Part shown: in pieces, positions 2,170 through 8,863 of the stretch
Layout: the number at the start of each line of letters is the position of its first letter
How positions within the stretch are numbered: the first letter of the stretch is position 1
NCBI GenBank assembly: GCA_025774735.1
Contig: JALGZU010000108.1
Coordinates: forward strand, 1-8,863
DNA from: a candidate division LCP-89 bacterium
Lineage (GTDB): Bacteria; Electryoneota; B3-LCP
Direction of reading: 5' to 3'
DNA: 8,863 bases
Translations under genes and position numbers: made by a program
The notes under the pieces: model-generated
Databases searched by the model: none
What the model was told of the DNA's origin: nothing
The model's input: the letters and a program-made list of their open reading frames with translations, nothing else

Positions 2170-2715
2170 ATGAATGACTCCGAGTTACAGAATATCCGAC
2201 AAGATTTACTTAACTACGTGAGCCGATTGACAGGAAATGGAGTACTTGCTGAGGACATCACTCAGGAAGCTCTCCTAAGGGTAGTGCATAAGGGAATGGA
2301 CAAAAAAAGCACGAGCGAATTTCGTGCTTATTTATTTCGCAGTGCCTATAATCTGATGATCGACACAAAACGTCAGGATCAAAGACGTCCAGGAACACAG
2401 CCCATCGATGAAGAATTTCTCATTTTGGCTGACGATAATGATAAATCTGATTCTCTTGAGAATGTGATCAAAAGGGAAATGAGCACCTGTATAAAGGATC
2501 TGCAGAAAAGGCTGCCGGAAGCTGATCAAGAAGCGCTCGGACTGGTTATTTACGGCGGTCTTAAGGTTCGGGAGGCTGCGGCAGTCTTGGGTATTTCGGT
2601 TGATGCTATGAAGGTACGGCTGTATAGAGCGCGCGATCGTGTACGTGATCTATTAGATCAAAACTGTCGTATAGGGAGAGATAACCAGGGTAGACTTTGT
2701 TGTGACAAAAAATAA
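2170..2715 (+). CDS. ECF-type RNA polymerase sigma factor (SigZ-like)
   Basis: This 181-residue protein has the two-domain build of extracytoplasmic-function sigma factors and directs RNA polymerase to a small set of promoters. Region 2 is at about residues 10-70 (AEDITQEALLRVVHK, then AYLFRSAYNLMIDTKRQ in the -10-recognition part). An acidic linker follows. Region 4 is at about 112-162 and ends in the helix-turn-helix VREAAAVLGISVDAMKVRLYRARDRV that reads the -35. The ATG has AGGGG upstream at an acceptable distance. The C-terminal tail carries Cys166, Cys177 and Cys178 with a D-x-x-G element, resembling the cysteine-bearing tails of SigZ-type factors, and may bind metal or sense thiol state. 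No anti-sigma gene is adjacent. The gene ends at a strong terminator, so it forms its own unit. Its likely targets are the matching promoters at 2790 and 3824. Confidence 0.9.
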   Translation: MNDSELQNIRQDLLNYVSRLTGNGVLAEDITQEALLRVVHKGMDKKSTSEFRAYLFRSAYNLMIDTKRQDQRRPGTQPIDEEFLILADDNDKSDSLENVIKREMSTCIKDLQKRLPEADQEALGLVIYGGLKVREAAAVLGISVDAMKVRLYRARDRVRDLLDQNCRIGRDNQGRLCCDKK

Positions 2716-2750: not shown

Positions 2751-2780
2751 AAATCCGTTCGTATCATCGAACGGATTTTT
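2751..2780 (+). terminator. Rho-independent terminator of the ECF sigma gene
   Basis: AAATCCGTTCG (2751-2761) and CGAACGGATTT (2768-2778) form a perfect 11-bp stem with a 6-nt loop, ending in T's. It lies 35 bp after the sigma stop codon, so the downstream gene needs its own promoter. Confidence 0.92.
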
Positions 2781-2789
2781 TATGGTTGG

Positions 2790-2816
2790 TGTAACCTCTC
2801 TCACACTAATTCGTTG
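2790..2816 (+). promoter_or_regulatory. ECF-type promoter of the isoprenoid synthase gene
   Basis: TGTAACC (2790-2796), 13 nt, TTCGTTG (2810-2816). The same two 7-mers at the same spacing precede the DGC gene at 3824-3850, while the 13-nt spacers differ. The AAC-containing -35 and CGTT -10 are the usual ECF sigma style. Transcription would start near 2823, about 50 nt before the ATG at 2874. Confidence 0.75.
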
Positions 2817-2831
2817 AGATTGTAGAGGTTA
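2792..2831. repeat. Inverted repeat spanning the ECF promoter
   Basis: TAACCTCT (2792-2799) and AGAGGTTA (2824-2831) are perfect 8-bp inverted copies 24 nt apart. The left arm overlaps the -35 element and the right arm lies at the predicted start point. It could be an operator for a dimeric regulator. It is not repeated at the 3824 promoter, so it may be chance. Confidence 0.4.
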
Positions 2832-2873
2832 AAATGTTTGAAGGTAACTAGAAACATCAAAGAAAGTATCAAC

Positions 2874-3809
2874 ATGACTATAAGCATTAAACTGAGAGAT
2901 GATTTGAGTTTTCCGGAGACCGTTAATGCCAGCTTTAGCGTAAAGAATCCTATTCTTGATATCGCTGCACGTTTCTGGGAAAAAGATCGATACCAAGCCT
3001 TCCAAATCTGTTATCGAGCAATGCGCAAGATTGATGATTTGGTCGATAATCTCAAGATTATGAGCAAAGAAATACCAATAAATGAATCATTTCAGGTCAA
3101 GACTCATATTACTAACTGGCTCGATTCATTAAAGACAAAGAAACCCTCTGACAGTAGTCAGGCGCAACTTGTCGAGATCTGCGACCGTTTTCGCATTCCC
3201 GTTTGGCCTTGGGAGCAATTCACTAAGGCGATGCTGTATGATCTCGAAAACGACGGATACTCCACATTTATTGATTTTCTACGGTATTCTGAAGGAGCGG
3301 CGGTTGCTCCAGCGTCTATATTCGTGCATCTATGCGGTCTCAATTTTGAAAACCACCAGTGCAAATTGCCGTGCTTTAACATCCGTAAAGCTGCGAGGCC
3401 ATTGGCTATTTTCTCGTATCTCGTACATATCATCAGAGATTTCCAGGTGGATAACCAGTTTGGTTTGAATTATTTCGCGGCTGACTTGTTGAGTGAGCGC
3501 GGATTAACAAAGAGTGATTTACGGCAGATTGCAAAAGGAGGCCCAATAAGCAATTCGTTCCGTGATCTTATCACATTCTATGTACGTCTTTCCAGATTTT
3601 ATCAGGAAAAAGCCTTAAAAACCTTTGAGGATATCCTACCACAGCTCGAGTCTCGGTACCGGTTGAGCCTGCTACTCATCCATGACCTTTACCTGCAAAT
3701 ACTTGATCGTGTAGACGTCCAATCAGGTAACTTCACTTTCAAGGAGGTTAATCCTCCACCTGAAGCCCTGAGAAAACAAATTAGACGGACAATTAGTAAT
3801 TTTGAATGA
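2874..3809 (+). CDS. Squalene/phytoene synthase family protein (head-to-head isoprenoid synthase)
   Basis: The 311-residue protein has the all-alpha trans-isoprenyl synthase pattern. FWEKDRYQAFQICYRAMRKIDDLVDN carries the first Asp-rich motif (D54, D55, D58). HIIRDFQVDNQFGLNYFAADLL carries the second (D189xxxD193). These Asp clusters bind Mg2+ and the two prenyl diphosphates in enzymes that make squalene or phytoene from two FPP or GGPP molecules. The length fits the family. The second motif ends in GLNYF where carotenoid enzymes usually have GRxYLP, so the exact product is open. I prefer the ATG at 2874, with AGAAAG upstream and a leader of about 50 nt from the ECF promoter. A TTG at 2838 with AGAGG before it would add 12 residues but leaves almost no leader. 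No desaturase, cyclase or other pathway gene is nearby. No terminator separates it from the DGC gene. Confidence 0.87.
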   Translation: MTISIKLRDDLSFPETVNASFSVKNPILDIAARFWEKDRYQAFQICYRAMRKIDDLVDNLKIMSKEIPINESFQVKTHITNWLDSLKTKKPSDSSQAQLVEICDRFRIPVWPWEQFTKAMLYDLENDGYSTFIDFLRYSEGAAVAPASIFVHLCGLNFENHQCKLPCFNIRKAARPLAIFSYLVHIIRDFQVDNQFGLNYFAADLLSERGLTKSDLRQIAKGGPISNSFRDLITFYVRLSRFYQEKALKTFEDILPQLESRYRLSLLLIHDLYLQILDRVDVQSGNFTFKEVNPPPEALRKQIRRTISNFE

Positions 3810-3823
3810 GCTAATCCAAATCA

Positions 3824-3850
3824 TGTAACCTTTTTCCAGCCTTTTCGTTG
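3824..3850 (+). promoter_or_regulatory. ECF-type promoter of the DGC-domain operon
   Basis: TGTAACC (3824-3830), 13 nt, TTCGTTG (3844-3850), identical in elements and spacing to 2790-2816. It gives a leader of about 55 nt before the ATG at 3912, close to the 50 nt inferred for the synthase gene. This puts both units under the same sigma factor. Confidence 0.75.
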
Positions 3851-3911
3851 TATTAGTAAAGAACACTTGGGAATACCATCGATTTAAACATCAATAATAC
3901 GGGAGTAAAAC

Positions 3912-4433
3912 ATGAATAATACTACACCTTCATTCTCAATAGAGGTGACTGGAACTAATGGGAAATGTCCTGTCGGTGAGAAAGTGGCCAAACAGAACAG
4001 GGATGGCTGTAAGATACCGGTCTTATCATGTGAAGGCGCCTGCATCCGCGGTGAGATTGCTCGCCTCGCTGCCAACCTGGTAGCAAAGGAAGAACAATAC
4101 CGACGTGGATGCCACGGAGAATTCTTTACAGTGCCTGACTCAACTATGACCGACTGGATCAATGAAGCTGAGAAAGTCGTACTCATCGATGGCTGTTTTC
4201 TTCGTTGCCACGGTAGAATTCTGGAAAATCTGATCGACAACGACAGACTCGTTCAATTCGATGCCCTTTCGCATTACAAGAAATACACCGATCGATTCGA
4301 CATTGATTCAGTTCCGGAAACTGAAAGAAAAGAGGTTGCTGGGAATGTTGCCGACTGGGTTATCACCAACTGCAAGCGGGTGCTAGATAATCAGGAAGAA
4401 GTAAAAGCAGCATGCCAGACATCCTGCTCGTAA
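3912..4433 (+). CDS. DGC-domain putative zinc-binding protein
   Basis: This 173-residue protein shows the cysteine pattern of the DGC domain family. SCEGACIRGEIARLAAN contains C40 and C44, RRGCHGEFF contains C67, and VVLIDGCFLRCHGRILEN contains the name-giving D93-G94-C95 with C99. The family is annotated as likely zinc-binding because of conserved cysteines, and its biochemical role is not established. There is no signal peptide, so it should be cytoplasmic. The start has GGGAG 6 nt upstream. It is the first gene after the ECF-type promoter at 3824 and is followed after 22 bp by a second cysteine-containing gene, presumably co-transcribed. Further Cys residues (C19, C33 and the C-terminal QTSC) are present and may also be ligands. 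In this setting it could be a metal or redox sensor for the sigma factor, or an effector of the response; neither is shown. Confidence 0.85.
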   Translation: MNNTTPSFSIEVTGTNGKCPVGEKVAKQNRDGCKIPVLSCEGACIRGEIARLAANLVAKEEQYRRGCHGEFFTVPDSTMTDWINEAEKVVLIDGCFLRCHGRILENLIDNDRLVQFDALSHYKKYTDRFDIDSVPETERKEVAGNVADWVITNCKRVLDNQEEVKAACQTSCS

Positions 4434-4455: not shown

Positions 4456-4956
4456 ATGCCGTTCCATTTTAAACCAATCAAAGATGTATCAGAATTTGCT
4501 GTGCATAAATCAGCGTTAATAGTCCCTTGTAGATTCTGTCCCGCAGCCAGCGCTGCTGTGAGAACACAAACCCCTTACATTGAACTTTTTCGAAACTTTC
4601 TAAAAACCGAGTCTTACGAAAAACAGATCGAAAATTTGAAATCTGAATTAATAAACAGAGGCGTGAGGGTAGGTATTTTCAAGAGCAAATGGATACACCA
4701 ATTTGTCCTATGTATGTGGACATCGAGAAGGCGTAAAGCTTTGGCAAGATATGCCCGCGAATATGATGCCTTAATCGTCTTAGGCTGCGAGGCAGCAGTA
4801 CGGACTGTCAATGATTCCGTCAAGTCAACACATTGCAGGATTCTGCAAGGTATTGAGACGGAGGGCGTTATGAGCATCATGCCAAGAGTTAAATTGCCCT
4901 GTACCTTGTCACTGGAGCTTGAAAGTTTGACACCGTTAGGATGCCTGGAGAGATAA
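4456..4956 (+). CDS. Uncharacterised CxxC protein co-transcribed with the DGC gene
   Basis: I do not recognise this 166-residue protein with confidence. It starts 22 bp after the DGC gene with a near-perfect AAGGAG 6 nt before the ATG. Visible features are PCRFCPA (C25 and C28), a charged helical segment around residues 45-70, FVLCMWTSRRRKALARYA, and the strand-turn motif YDALIVLGCEAAVRTV (C111), then C127, PCTLSLELE (C149) and a C-terminal GCLER. The hydrophobic strand plus GC turn recalls cysteine-rich domains seen in methylenetetrahydrofolate reductase C-terminal-like and related electron-transfer proteins, but that is only a resemblance. There is no signal peptide or membrane segment. The cysteines and the operon suggest a metal, iron-sulfur or thiol-linked role shared with the DGC protein. 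A terminator follows at 5027. Confidence 0.75.
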   Translation: MPFHFKPIKDVSEFAVHKSALIVPCRFCPAASAAVRTQTPYIELFRNFLKTESYEKQIENLKSELINRGVRVGIFKSKWIHQFVLCMWTSRRRKALARYAREYDALIVLGCEAAVRTVNDSVKSTHCRILQGIETEGVMSIMPRVKLPCTLSLELESLTPLGCLER

Positions 4957-5026: not shown

Positions 5027-5054
5027 AAGCCTCAGGATCTCTCCTGAGGCTTTT
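5027..5054 (+). terminator. Rho-independent terminator of the DGC operon
   Basis: AAGCCTCAGGA (5027-5037) pairs with TCCTGAGGCTT (5042-5052) around TCTC and continues into TTTT. It is the same stem as at 1889-1917. It lies 70 bp after the last gene of the cassette. Confidence 0.88.
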
Positions 5055-5150
5055 GTCGTTGCTGGGAGTTAGGGACGCTATTCGAACTTTTGAGGGGTGG
5101 GAGAAGCTCTTCGAAATAGGATTGGCGGCATGAATTGCCAACAGATATTT
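5027..5150 (+). repeat. Terminator-containing intergenic repeat, copy B
   Basis: Positions 5041-5102 match 1904-1965 at 60 of 62 bases in the same orientation, and fading similarity runs to about 5150. Recombination between the two copies would excise about 3.14 kb carrying exactly the sigma, synthase, DGC and CxxC genes. The conservation past the hairpin (5055-5102) is not needed for termination, so the unit is more than a terminator. Confidence 0.8.
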
Positions 5151-5529: not shown

Positions 5530-8500
5530 ATGAAAACCTGGAAAATTCTTTGTTGTTCTATGCTAATCCTTCTGGGATTAGATACAGCTTTCGCTGCTTA
5601 CGTACCGCTGCGCCTGGACGTCCAGGGCGATCGCCCCCAGGTCGAAATTCTGTACCATGATGAGGATCAAGTTCAATTAGAAGTTCTTCTTCCGGGGGTG
5701 GAACGTTTAGAAGGCACCCTGGAGGGGCGCCGCTGGGATCGAATAGAAATCCCCGGCGGAGGCTACGAACAGGATTTAGGTGCCCCTGAAGTGCCCCACT
5801 TCACCCGTCTGTTAGCGATTCCCGCCAGGTCCGGCGTCCGGGTGGAATTTGAGGCTCTGGAAACCACCACTTTATCAGATATCGAACTGATGCCCGCCCA
5901 AGGCGTGGATCCGGAAGATTTGGTCAAAGATCCCAAGCCCGTTCAATTTGATATGACCGCCTATTCCCGGGATGCCCTTTATCCCGACGTGGAAGTTAAA
6001 GCGGGCAGCCCGGCGCTGATGAGGGGCATTCGTTTGATCCCCATCCAGACGAACCCGGTCCGTTACAATCCGGTCACGGGCGACCTGCAGGTCGCTCACC
6101 GGTATCGCGTTACCGTTCATTTCGAAGGCACCGATCTGCGCAATGGGCCCGTACGGTCCGTGCGCCCCATCTCCCGCTCCTGGAAGAAGTTGATGAGTGG
6201 TATGGTGTTGAACCTGGACGAACTGGATCTGGATGTGGTGCCCATGGGATCATACCTCCTGATCTGCGAGGATAACGCGGCGTTGTTGAACGATCTGGGG
6301 CCGTTTGTGGAGTGGAAGACTCGCAAGGGTCATACGGTTGTCACAGAAACCTTTATGCCGGGAGCCAGTACCACGACGGTCAAGAACATTATTCAGGATG
6401 CTTACGACAACTGGGACATCCCCCCTGAATTCGTTCTTCTTTGGGGAGATTCTTCCGGCGAACTGATGGTGCCTGCCTATCAATCCTACCACATCGACCA
6501 TCCCTACTCGCAGCTTGATGGCGGTGATATTTTAGCTGATGTTGCCATCGGGCGCCTGCCTGCGGAAAATCTCTACGAAACCGCTGTGATGGTCAATAAG
6601 GTTCTCTTCTACGAGAAGATCCCTTACACAGCGAACGAAGACTGGTACCACCAGGCGGTGTTAGTTGCAGGTTCGGGCACATCGGGTTTGTCCACCGTAC
6701 AAACCAACCGGTGGATCAAAACCCGCATGATCTGGCACGAATACACCCGGATCGATACATTCTGGTACTGGATGGGCGGCTCAGGTTCTACAGTAACGTC
6801 CAACGCCGTCAACAACGGTGTGACCTATTACAACTTCCGCGGTTGGATCGGCGGTGGTTTGAGCAATTCCAGCATCAACGCTCTTTACAACGGCCGCATG
6901 CTCATTTTCGCCTCGGACATCACCTGCAGTTCGGGTGGATTCTCCGGCGATGACCATATGGAACACTGGGTCAGCGTGGGGACTCCGACGACGCCGAAAG
7001 GGGCGGTCGCTTCGGTGGGAACAGCTACATCCTATACCAATACGCGCTGCAATAACACCGTGGACATGGGACTTTACGCCGGCCTCTTCGATGAGGGTAT
7101 CACTCAGGCCGGAAATGCGCTGAACCGGGGCAAGCTTGAGCTCTACAATACCTATCAGACCAATGATCCCGACCTCGTTGTAGATTACTCGGAGTGGAAT
7201 GCCCTGGCGGGTGATCCGGGTCTGGAATTGTTCACCGGTCCCATCCGATACATGGAAACGAGCATCCCAGCCACAATCTCCTGGGGTGAGAACGTCCTCA
7301 GCCTGGTGGTCAACGAGACCGGCGTCGGACCTTTGGAAGATGCCATCGTCTGTTTCTATAAACGCGGTGAAATCCAGGAGGTCGGCTTGACGGACGCCAG
7401 CGGCCAGGTGACCTTACCGCTCGATGACCTGACGGCTGGCAACCTCAAGGTGACCATCACCAGGCAGAACTTCTATCCCATCGTCGATTCTCTGGACATC
7501 GTTCAGGCGGACGTGGCGGTGGGCTACTTCGATCACTCCATTGATGATGATAATTCCGGCACCAGTTCGGGTGACAGTGATGGTGTTATCAATCCAGGCG
7601 AGACGGTGGAAATCCCACTGATCTTCAAGAATTACGGATCGACGACAACTGCCACGGGAGTCAGCGTCACAGCAACCACGTCCAGCGAGTTTACCGCCCT
7701 GGATGACGATTATGAAACCTTCTCAAGTATAGCTCCCGGTGCGACCGCGAATAGTCTGGATGATCTGGACCTGACCATCTCGAGTGACTGTCCACACGGT
7801 CACCTGGTTCGTCTGGACCTGGTTACAGGCGCTGATCAGGGCTCCTGGGACGGGGTGATCGACCTGGAGGTGGTGTCCTACGACATGTCCATCCGGACGG
7901 CCGTTGCTTCCGGCAGCGATACGCTGCTCTCCCCGGGAGAAACCGCCGATCTGATTCTGACTGTGACCAATGACGGTGGCAAAGAGGCTGCCTCCCTAAC
8001 AGCCGCGATCTCTTCGTTGAGCGTCTATGTGACGGTGAACGACAATCAGGCCAGCTTCGGGACAGTCGGAATCGGATCGACCGCCAACTGCTTGGGCAAT
8101 CCCTTCAATTTGACCGCCGCCCAGGATACGCCTCCGGGGTACCTGGCCGACCTGGAAGTCGTCTTCACCAGCTCCCTCGGGGTGACTCAGACCGATACCA
8201 TCACCATCAGTCTCGGCGAGAAGACGACAGCCGATCCACAGGGGCCGGACGAATACGGCTACTACTGTTTCGACAACACCGACCTGAACTACGCTCAGGC
8301 CCCGGTCTACAACTGGGTGGAGATCGACCCCAACTACGGCGGTTCGGGGACGCAGCTGCCCATCTATGATACCGGTGAAGACGACGACATGTCTGTCAAC
8401 GTTCCGCTGCCCTTTACGTTCAGGTATTACGGTGAGGACGTGGATGAAATCACCGTTTGCAGCAACGGATGGATATCAACCTGGGCGAACAATTCGTTCA

Positions 8501-8706
8501 CCGATTTCCGCAACTATCCCATCCCCGCAAGCGTGGGGCCCAACGGCCTGATTGCCGCTTTCTGGGATGATCTGATCACCTGGTCGGGCGGATATGTGTA
8601 TGCCATGGAAGATGAAGTGAATCACAGCTTTATCATCGAATGGTGTGTACCACCCAACCTCGACAGGCGATGGCCCTATCCTTTTCCAGTACAACGAGAT
8701 TGTTGA
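5530..8706 (+). CDS. Secreted gingipain-like C25 family peptidase, 3' part out of frame
   Basis: The 1058-codon frame starts at an ATG with AGAGG upstream. Residues 1-22 are a signal peptide (ILCCSMLILLGLDTAFA). About 23-238 resemble the C25 prodomain. About 239-570 are the caspase-like C25 domain, with LLWGDSSGELMVPAY, ADVAIGRLPAEN and FASDITCSSGGFSG, where C466 sits at the gingipain nucleophile position. The region matching the usual GHG reads NFRGWIG, with W439 in place of the catalytic His. About 578-660 form an Ig-like/carboxypeptidase-regulatory-like domain. About 662-780 and 783-900 are beta-sandwich (CARDB-like) repeats with PGET motifs and an Asp-rich loop. About 907-1038 form a beta domain (LPFTFRYYG, VCSNGWIS, FWDDL). 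After IIEW (W1038) the frame is wrong, and homology resumes in another frame at 8645. The true C-terminus, with the T9SS sorting domain, is probably the 2-811 piece across the contig ends. It would be exported by Sec and then T9SS. Confidence 0.85.
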   Translation: MKTWKILCCSMLILLGLDTAFAAYVPLRLDVQGDRPQVEILYHDEDQVQLEVLLPGVERLEGTLEGRRWDRIEIPGGGYEQDLGAPEVPHFTRLLAIPARSGVRVEFEALETTTLSDIELMPAQGVDPEDLVKDPKPVQFDMTAYSRDALYPDVEVKAGSPALMRGIRLIPIQTNPVRYNPVTGDLQVAHRYRVTVHFEGTDLRNGPVRSVRPISRSWKKLMSGMVLNLDELDLDVVPMGSYLLICEDNAALLNDLGPFVEWKTRKGHTVVTETFMPGASTTTVKNIIQDAYDNWDIPPEFVLLWGDSSGELMVPAYQSYHIDHPYSQLDGGDILADVAIGRLPAENLYETAVMVNKVLFYEKIPYTANEDWYHQAVLVAGSGTSGLSTVQTNRWIKTRMIWHEYTRIDTFWYWMGGSGSTVTSNAVNNGVTYYNFRGWIGGGLSNSSINALYNGRMLIFASDITCSSGGFSGDDHMEHWVSVGTPTTPKGAVASVGTATSYTNTRCNNTVDMGLYAGLFDEGITQAGNALNRGKLELYNTYQTNDPDLVVDYSEWNALAGDPGLELFTGPIRYMETSIPATISWGENVLSLVVNETGVGPLEDAIVCFYKRGEIQEVGLTDASGQVTLPLDDLTAGNLKVTITRQNFYPIVDSLDIVQADVAVGYFDHSIDDDNSGTSSGDSDGVINPGETVEIPLIFKNYGSTTTATGVSVTATTSSEFTALDDDYETFSSIAPGATANSLDDLDLTISSDCPHGHLVRLDLVTGADQGSWDGVIDLEVVSYDMSIRTAVASGSDTLLSPGETADLILTVTNDGGKEAASLTAAISSLSVYVTVNDNQASFGTVGIGSTANCLGNPFNLTAAQDTPPGYLADLEVVFTSSLGVTQTDTITISLGEKTTADPQGPDEYGYYCFDNTDLNYAQAPVYNWVEIDPNYGGSGTQLPIYDTGEDDDMSVNVPLPFTFRYYGEDVDEITVCSNGWISTWANNSFTDFRNYPIPASVGPNGLIAAFWDDLITWSGGYVYAMEDEVNHSFIIEWCVPPNLDRRWPYPFPVQRDC

Positions 8707-8863
8707 AGTAAGCGGTGCCTACTACGATAATCCCTATTCCACCGTGGGCATCGAACGGCCGGATCAGCAGGACGGTATCGAAATCGTCTACTGGAACACC
8801 TACGACGATCCGGCTGCAGCAACTCTCCAAAACGGCCGCGCTTACTTTTTCACCACGGCGCTG
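8645..8863 (+). pseudogene. Frame-shifted continuation of the C25 peptidase gene
   Basis: In the frame starting at 8645 the sequence reads VYHPTSTGDGPILFQYNEIVEV and continues to YWNTYDDPAAATLQNGRAYFFTTAL at the window end. This is the expected follow-on of the beta domain that ends at W1038 in the frame of 5530, and it runs in frame into 2-811 if the ends are joined. Related secreted proteins, as I recall them, have about 20 residues between IIEW and TGDG that are missing here. So a deletion not divisible by three, not a single-base slip, seems likely. Confidence 0.75.
8767..8863. repeat. Terminal direct repeat, right copy
   Basis: Identical to 1-97 over all 97 bases. Merging the two copies gives a ring of 8766 bp in which the peptidase gene continues, in the shifted frame, into the T9SS sorting domain that ends at 811. 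Confidence 0.95.

Follow-up and report, generated by a model that had tools for sequence, protein, structure and literature searches.

A local ECF sigma factor regulon with a possible built-in thiol or metal(loid) sensor, predicted from paired sites in a candidate division LCP-89 bacterium

Described ECF systems and the locus

According to the available part of PMC8103513, AAC in the -35 element and CGT in the -10 element are the hallmark of the extracytoplasmic function (ECF) sigma factors that were studied first. Here we analyze 8,863 bp of DNA from a candidate division LCP-89 bacterium (contig JALGZU010000108.1; this whole stretch is called the window), in which two identical sites of this form precede a squalene/phytoene synthase (SQS) family gene and a DGC-domain gene, next to a gene for an ECF sigma factor. 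It is very probable that these sites are promoters of the adjoining sigma factor, which would govern a small local regulon and carry a putative thiol switch. Three observations are established: the two sites themselves, their likeness to sites found in other phyla before related sigma genes and DGC genes, and the conservation of cysteines in the sigma factor.

In CorE and CorE2 of Myxococcus xanthus (ECF238, formerly ECF44), cysteines in the linker and at the C terminus set metal-dependent activity, and no separate anti-sigma factor is involved according to the accessible text (PMC8999054). C-terminal cysteines starting at the edge of region 4.2 form an on-board iron sensor in OrbS of Burkholderia cenocepacia (ECF243), again as far as the accessible text goes (PMC9023288). 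The sigma factor of the window resembles CorE and CorE2, as presented there, in having cysteines both in the sigma2-sigma4 linker and at the C terminus. It differs from CorE-like ECF238 proteins, which have a CXC motif in the linker and a cysteine-rich C-terminal domain: its linker holds a single cysteine, Cys107, and its C terminus has the conserved Cys166 and Cys178 plus Cys177. OrbS differs in its four clustered C-terminal cysteines and its ornibactin genes, and the available part of its description mentions no linker cysteine (PMC9023288). Because the cysteines of CorE and OrbS sit at such places, it is conceivable that the window sigma factor is its own metal sensor. Its best NCBIfam match is SigZ (TIGR02959), a model that covers the C-terminal extension; with 95.1 bits it stays below the cut-off of 168.65, and by this model the protein is not a SigZ equivalog.

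Caulobacter sigmaF has the promoter GTAACC-N16-CGAA, serves metal-stress genes, and is not strongly autoregulated, according to the accessible portion of PMC3511200. As given there, this promoter shares the -35 core of the window sites and differs in its -10 element, and a separate protein with conserved cysteines, NrsF, probably acts as the sensor, unlike what we propose for the window. The main features of the locus are as follows.

2170..2715, + strand: ECF sigma factor, 181 aa (Pfam Sigma70_r2, 4.3e-12; Sigma70_r4_2, 1.1e-9)
2790..2816, + strand: predicted sigma-dependent promoter 1, TGTAACC-N13-TTCGTTG (shared dyad; matrix rank 2)
2852..2860, + strand: third block, copy 1, AAACATCAA (leader alignment)
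2874..3809, + strand: SQS family protein, 311 aa (Pfam SQS_PSY, 4.7e-19)
3824..3850, + strand: predicted sigma-dependent promoter 2, TGTAACC-N13-TTCGTTG (shared dyad; matrix rank 1)
3886..3894, + strand: third block, copy 2, AAACATCAA (leader alignment)
3912..4433, + strand: DGC-domain protein, CEGxC subtype (Pfam DGC, 6.2e-14)
4456..4956, + strand: ORF4, conserved cysteine protein (1388 homologues)

Like other ECF (group 4) factors, the sigma factor consists of sigma2 and sigma4 domains only, to which a short C-terminal extension bearing Cys166 and Cys178 is added; Cys107 lies in the linker. Canonical ECF factors are paired with a co-encoded anti-sigma factor. A scan of seven window proteins, five of which are encoded between 2170 and 8703, revealed neither an anti-sigma domain nor such a pair. 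In the mechanism we propose, the product of the ECF sigma gene would read both sites, with promoter 1 driving the SQS gene and promoter 2 driving the DGC gene and ORF4, which are probably in one operon. A thiol-reactive signal (metal, metalloid, or oxidant) would act on the linker Cys107 and the C-terminal Cys166 and Cys178 in the manner of CorE and OrbS, and a separate anti-sigma factor would be unneeded.

Paired sites in the two leaders and in relatives

TGTAACC-N13-TTCGTTG occurs as two exact copies, at 2790-2816 and 3824-3850, both on the + strand. A sequence-only reading of the window had placed two identical copies at just these positions, with unrelated spacers and no third copy. Indeed, no further copy is found on either strand of the 8863-bp window with up to 3 mismatches, and the spacers agree at 5 of 13 positions. 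The pattern GTAAC-N15..18-CGTT likewise occurs in the same two places only. By sequence, both sites, and the relatives' sites described below, have AAC at -35 and CGT at -10, in line with the ECF style claimed by that reading. Its two-part motif was correct as far as it went but missed a third block, AAACATCAA, common to both leaders at 2852-2860 and 3886-3894, 62 nt from each motif start in an ungapped alignment. The three blocks share one ungapped register spanning 71 bp of both leaders. Most of the 120 SQS homologues listed measure 305 to 320 aa, so ATG 2874 is the most likely start of the SQS gene; the sites therefore begin 84 nt (SQS gene) and 88 nt (DGC gene) 5' of the start codons.

We leave the role of the AAACATCAA block unassigned. 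Its place downstream of the expected start would suit a different reading, in which the shared sequence serves a conventional regulator as its operator instead of being a core promoter. This is very improbable: the two half-sites lie at ECF-type spacing, a consensus scan lists no sigma-70-like promoter in either intergenic gap, and matching sites occur in one ECF clade and are absent from the other ECF loci compared. The single register over 71 bp could also mean that the leaders are a duplicated promoter region, with the blocks as leftovers of duplication and not of separate selection. Outside the blocks, however, identity is near chance (5/13 in the spacer, 10/40 upstream, and 22/57 downstream with the third block included; 22/57 or better was reached by 1395 of 20,000 shuffles). 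Duplication of this kind is thus unlikely, and duplicates would remain functional promoters anyway. We claim no shared RNA structure for the leaders, whose folds (-6.6 and -4.5 kcal/mol) differ in shape. The SQS leader also contains a six-codon frame (start to stop) at 2834-2851, with a purine-rich stretch before it, that ends directly before AAACATCAA.

Could two intergenic stretches resemble each other to this degree by chance? The bare 14-base pattern count is weak evidence, because at least 2 matches arose in 31 of 200 whole-window shuffles with 3 mismatches allowed; the window's own two matches have 0 mismatches. Unlike this count, the dyad common to the two intergenic regions is strong evidence. 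Any shared dyad of two 7-mers separated by 8 to 22 nt appeared in 6 of 3000 shuffle pairs of the two gaps, and one containing AAC and CGT in 0 of 3000. An in-register run of at least 9, like AAACATCAA, was seen in 6 of 20,000 shuffles in a test made after the block was noticed; a shared 9-mer in any register was commoner (141/4000). We further scored the whole window with a matrix built from 19 relatives' sites, with no window sequence included. Site 2 ranked first (21.6 bits) and site 1 second (18.0 bits), and the next different site reached 8.8 bits. The best single score in 60 block shuffles was as high as 19.0 bits, so site 1 alone is within chance, whereas the second-best score never exceeded 13.9 bits, which places the pair beyond chance. 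Taken together, these tests make a chance resemblance extremely improbable.

The sigma protein search returned 10 relatives, four of them close (98, 72, 57, and 55% identity). The motif comparison rests on DNA of more distant relatives, obtained by a profile search of whole genomes. The profile was a 15-member sigma alignment of distant and close relatives, ten of them picked for reaching the C terminus, and the search covered 395, 82, and 297 genomes from the phyla of G103 (entry L040, a Desulfobacteraceae record), G001, and G092 (via L031, an Acidobacteriota record). The distant members of this alignment came from matches in two phyla: the C-terminal signature was found in 6/6 sigma matches in the phylum of G103 and in 4/5 in the phylum of G085 (entry L003, a Deltaproteobacteria record), and TAAC-N17-CGTC stands near the sigma gene at 5/6 loci in the former. 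We scored 75 fetched loci for the motif.

In a tree of 43 proteins, 13 members from the phyla of G103 and G092 form a clade with support of 97/85. GTAACC-N16-CGTC lies within 520 nt upstream on the same strand in 12 of these 13, with exact TGTAACC in 11, versus 0/15 other family members (profile score at least 140 bits) and 0/45 other ECF loci; by mononucleotide shuffling, 0.002 of 13 would be expected. Two fragments, L150 and L160, were excluded from these counts, and the motif is in neither. Because the relatives' sites were first detected by TAAC or TAACC patterns, the TG before TAACC is extra agreement with the window heptamer. Shortly downstream of all 12 sites, and still upstream of the sigma gene, lies a small CxxC frame; of the four among these 12 proteins that were scanned, those of L126, L127, and L237 score over the cut-off of the CMD family PF02627, and that of L239 has no match.

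A looser pattern, TAACC-N15/16-CGT within 500 nt upstream on the same strand, is present at 10/26 loci with the C-terminal signature versus 2/49 without it; the tree later placed these two, L148 and L180, inside the 13-member clade. Anywhere in the locus, the counts are 12/26 and 7/49. L113 to L116, which come from G085's phylum and have the cysteines too, were used in the tree only. Among shorter versions of these loci, L108 and L110 gave weaker GTAAC matches and L109 gave none. L112 has one GTAACC-N15-CGT, the window's own spacing, on the same strand and some 400 nt before the match to a sigma factor with the cysteine signature, in a phylum other than the window's. The recognition-helix residues KVRL versus KIRL were tried as a predictor of the motif and proved imperfect: the motif accompanies KIRL in L136 and L180 and is absent in L142, which has KVRL.

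Searches elsewhere returned no closer material. There was no close sigma orthologue among the 80 loci listed from a broad genome-contig search (ECF factors at 23 to 35% identity), and viral contigs gave 16 ECF factors in the same identity range and no ORF4. No plasmid matched 1900-5530. The 82 genomes from the phylum of G001 contain no close sigma orthologue and no ORF4; one sigma fragment there has the cysteine signature (L098, the same as L160) and lacks the motif. The G001 genome has 157 YPNPFNP-type sites. A literature search of titles and abstract starts found no paper on this ECF group, which may already carry a number in the 2021 ECF reclassification.

Similarly, the site is linked to one DGC subtype. 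All four CEGxC-subtype DGC genes of the relatives (G493, G535, G103, and G335) have TGTAAC[C/T]-N16-CGTC upstream on the same strand, and no TGTAAC site was found at the DGC loci elsewhere, among which L254 is cut by a contig end. These four are the best BLAST matches of the window DGC protein (E 4e-19 to 7e-16); other DGC proteins match at 0.001 or worse. DGC domains occur in 9/13 clade genomes versus 1/12 comparison genomes, the latter mostly smaller. The gene order in G493 is site, CMD-like gene (20.8 bits, under the 23-bit cut-off), sigma, site, DGC, DGC, and G535 has the order sigma, site, DGC, OsmC, ArsR-type regulator. In both, the site sits between the sigma and DGC genes, whereas in the window the SQS gene intervenes as well. 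The site lies 91 nt before the DGC gene in G493 and 96 nt in G535, compared with 88 nt in the window. G335 has a small cysteine-rich frame between site and DGC gene, and in G103 the DGC gene is on a different contig from the sigma match.

Several observations weigh against assigning the sites to the neighbouring sigma factor. After TGTAACC, the window sites continue with N15 and CGTT, a spacing 1 nt shorter than that of the relatives' sites, which continue with N16 and CGTC. The window does not have the GTAACC-N16-CGTC upstream of the sigma operon that marks the DGC-linked clade, and no motif copy with up to 3 mismatches lies 5' of 2170, as positive autoregulation would require. The tree draws the window's own clade apart from the 13-member clade, though on a long branch (2.34 changes per column) and with weakly supported deep forks; given this long branch and the lack of a join, the common -35 could be convergent. 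Some of the 15 motif-less family members are nearer the window in the tree. TAACCTT-N14-CGTC shows no genome-wide excess in the 12 positive genomes (25 matches versus 32 for the backwards pattern); 12 other genomes gave 13 versus 30. A genome-wide regulon in the relatives is therefore not supported, and the regulon looks small and local. A comparison of coordinates places 14 of the 25 matches at loci of sigma or DGC genes.

The sites could instead be read by a different ECF factor of the host, leaving the neighbour a bystander. The accessible texts on the AAC/CGT hallmark (PMC8103513) and on Caulobacter sigmaF (PMC3511200) indicate that GTAAC and CGT elements are used by various ECF factors, and the window sigma factor is drawn outside the motif clade with no copy upstream of itself. 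Yet it adjoins the sites, and in other phyla, too, sites of this kind and DGC genes of this subtype stand next to related sigma genes, which makes a bystander quite unlikely. We regard it as likely from these sequence comparisons that the pair gives the recognition sequence of the neighbouring ECF sigma factor, the central proposal of the sequence-only reading. The clade contrast (12/13 versus 0/15 and 0/45), the first and second ranks under the relatives-only matrix, and the four CEGxC DGC genes all support it.

Cysteines and a possible signal

Cys107, Cys166, Asp171, and Cys178 are invariant in the 15 aligned sigma proteins, although ten of these were picked for matching to the C terminus. 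Where the cysteines are missing they tend to go together, and such joint loss fits a common role. L240, whose sigma gene stands beside such a site, has lost the linker cysteine and the last cysteine and kept one near the end; L263, also beside a site, has lost all three; and L264, likewise, has lost all three positions and has another cysteine near its end. The L180 sigma frame departs from the cysteine signature as well. These four cases imply that promoter recognition does not need the cysteines and that the sensor, if real, is not universal. The structural model renders the C-terminal stretch as a hairpin at low confidence (block pLDDT 65 and 56). With these points counted, we put forward tentatively, by analogy, that the sigma factor is switched by some thiol or metal signal.

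Three cysteines suit the binding of As(III). Arsenic genes over their NCBIfam cut-offs adjoin some relatives: ACR3 in L127, L235, and L113, and ArsM in L126 and L129. An ArsR-family HTH_5 domain is found in L126, L264, and L113, and an ArsC-like protein in L127 falls under its cut-off. Because a few relatives adjoin ACR3, ArsM, and ArsR-type genes, arsenite is the most specific candidate signal; it is less likely than a thiol or metal signal of any kind. Two of these loci, L113 and L129, lie outside the 13-member clade. Further, arsenic neighbours occur at only 3/13 clade loci (G335, G392, and G379), with few neighbours scanned elsewhere, and the window itself has no arsenic gene.

The most far-reaching version of the proposal is a widespread ECF lineage whose sigma factor would sense arsenite or a similar soft metal(loid) by three cysteines tying the sigma2-sigma4 linker to the C-terminal hairpin, and would transcribe a CEGxC-type DGC gene with lineage-specific partners, the isoprenoid synthase being wired in within Zixibacteria. 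As a whole, this version is doubtful. Small Met- and Cys-rich frames also recur near the relatives' sigma loci (L126:6271-6468, L127:4566-4784, and L235:5256-5468); those in L126 and L127 lie shortly after a TGTAAC site, and the one scanned had no Pfam match.

Partner genes, flanking elements, and meaning

An organism is named for 11 of the 120 SQS homologues listed, and 9 of these 11 are Zixibacteria. For ORF4, the 5 named among 120 listed are 3 Zixibacteria and 2 Hodarchaeota. Judged by these homologues, the host would probably be assigned to Zixibacteria. Cys25, Cys28, Cys86, and Cys111 of ORF4, with the motifs PCRFCPAAS and GCE, are invariant in 32 aligned sequences. No Pfam or NCBIfam model matches the family over its cut-off, and a fold search of the PDB returned no match at E<=0.001. 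Two terminator-like elements lie in and after the module.

2751..2778, + strand: terminator-like element (hairpin, T run) after the sigma gene and before site 1 (consensus scan)
5028..5055, + strand: terminator-like inverted repeat after ORF4 (read from the sequence; same kind as 1889-1917)

The first of these would split the sigma gene and the SQS gene into two transcription units. A consensus scan counts 8 terminator-like elements in the region versus 3.2 in shuffles.

Two 95-bp repeats (1903-1997 and 5040-5134, 83% identical), each beginning in a terminator-like element, flank the sigma-SQS-DGC-ORF4 module and may mark an inserted or duplicated block. Upstream, a tRNA-Asp (957-1032) is followed by a minus-strand tyrosine recombinase remnant (1139-1393; Phage_integrase, 8.8e-12), which by sequence is an integration-type site adjoining the module. 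The window ends in an exact 97-bp terminal direct repeat (1-97 and 8767-8863), so the contig looks circular or closed on the repeat. A C25 (gingipain-type) peptidase frame occupies 5530-8706, with similar coding that seems to continue in another frame into the terminal repeat, and a Por-type secretion tail is found at 2-811.

The paired sites provide a sigma factor of a probably uncultured lineage with a recognition sequence and a regulon that are concrete and can be tested; the promoter pair could double as an orthogonal reporter. The DGC domain is poorly understood, and one of its subtypes is now connected, in more than one phylum, with a single kind of regulator. The usual arsenic regulators are ArsR-type repressors. 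If the cysteines do sense arsenite or another soft metal, this sigma factor would combine the sensor and the transcription factor for arsenic stress in a single protein.
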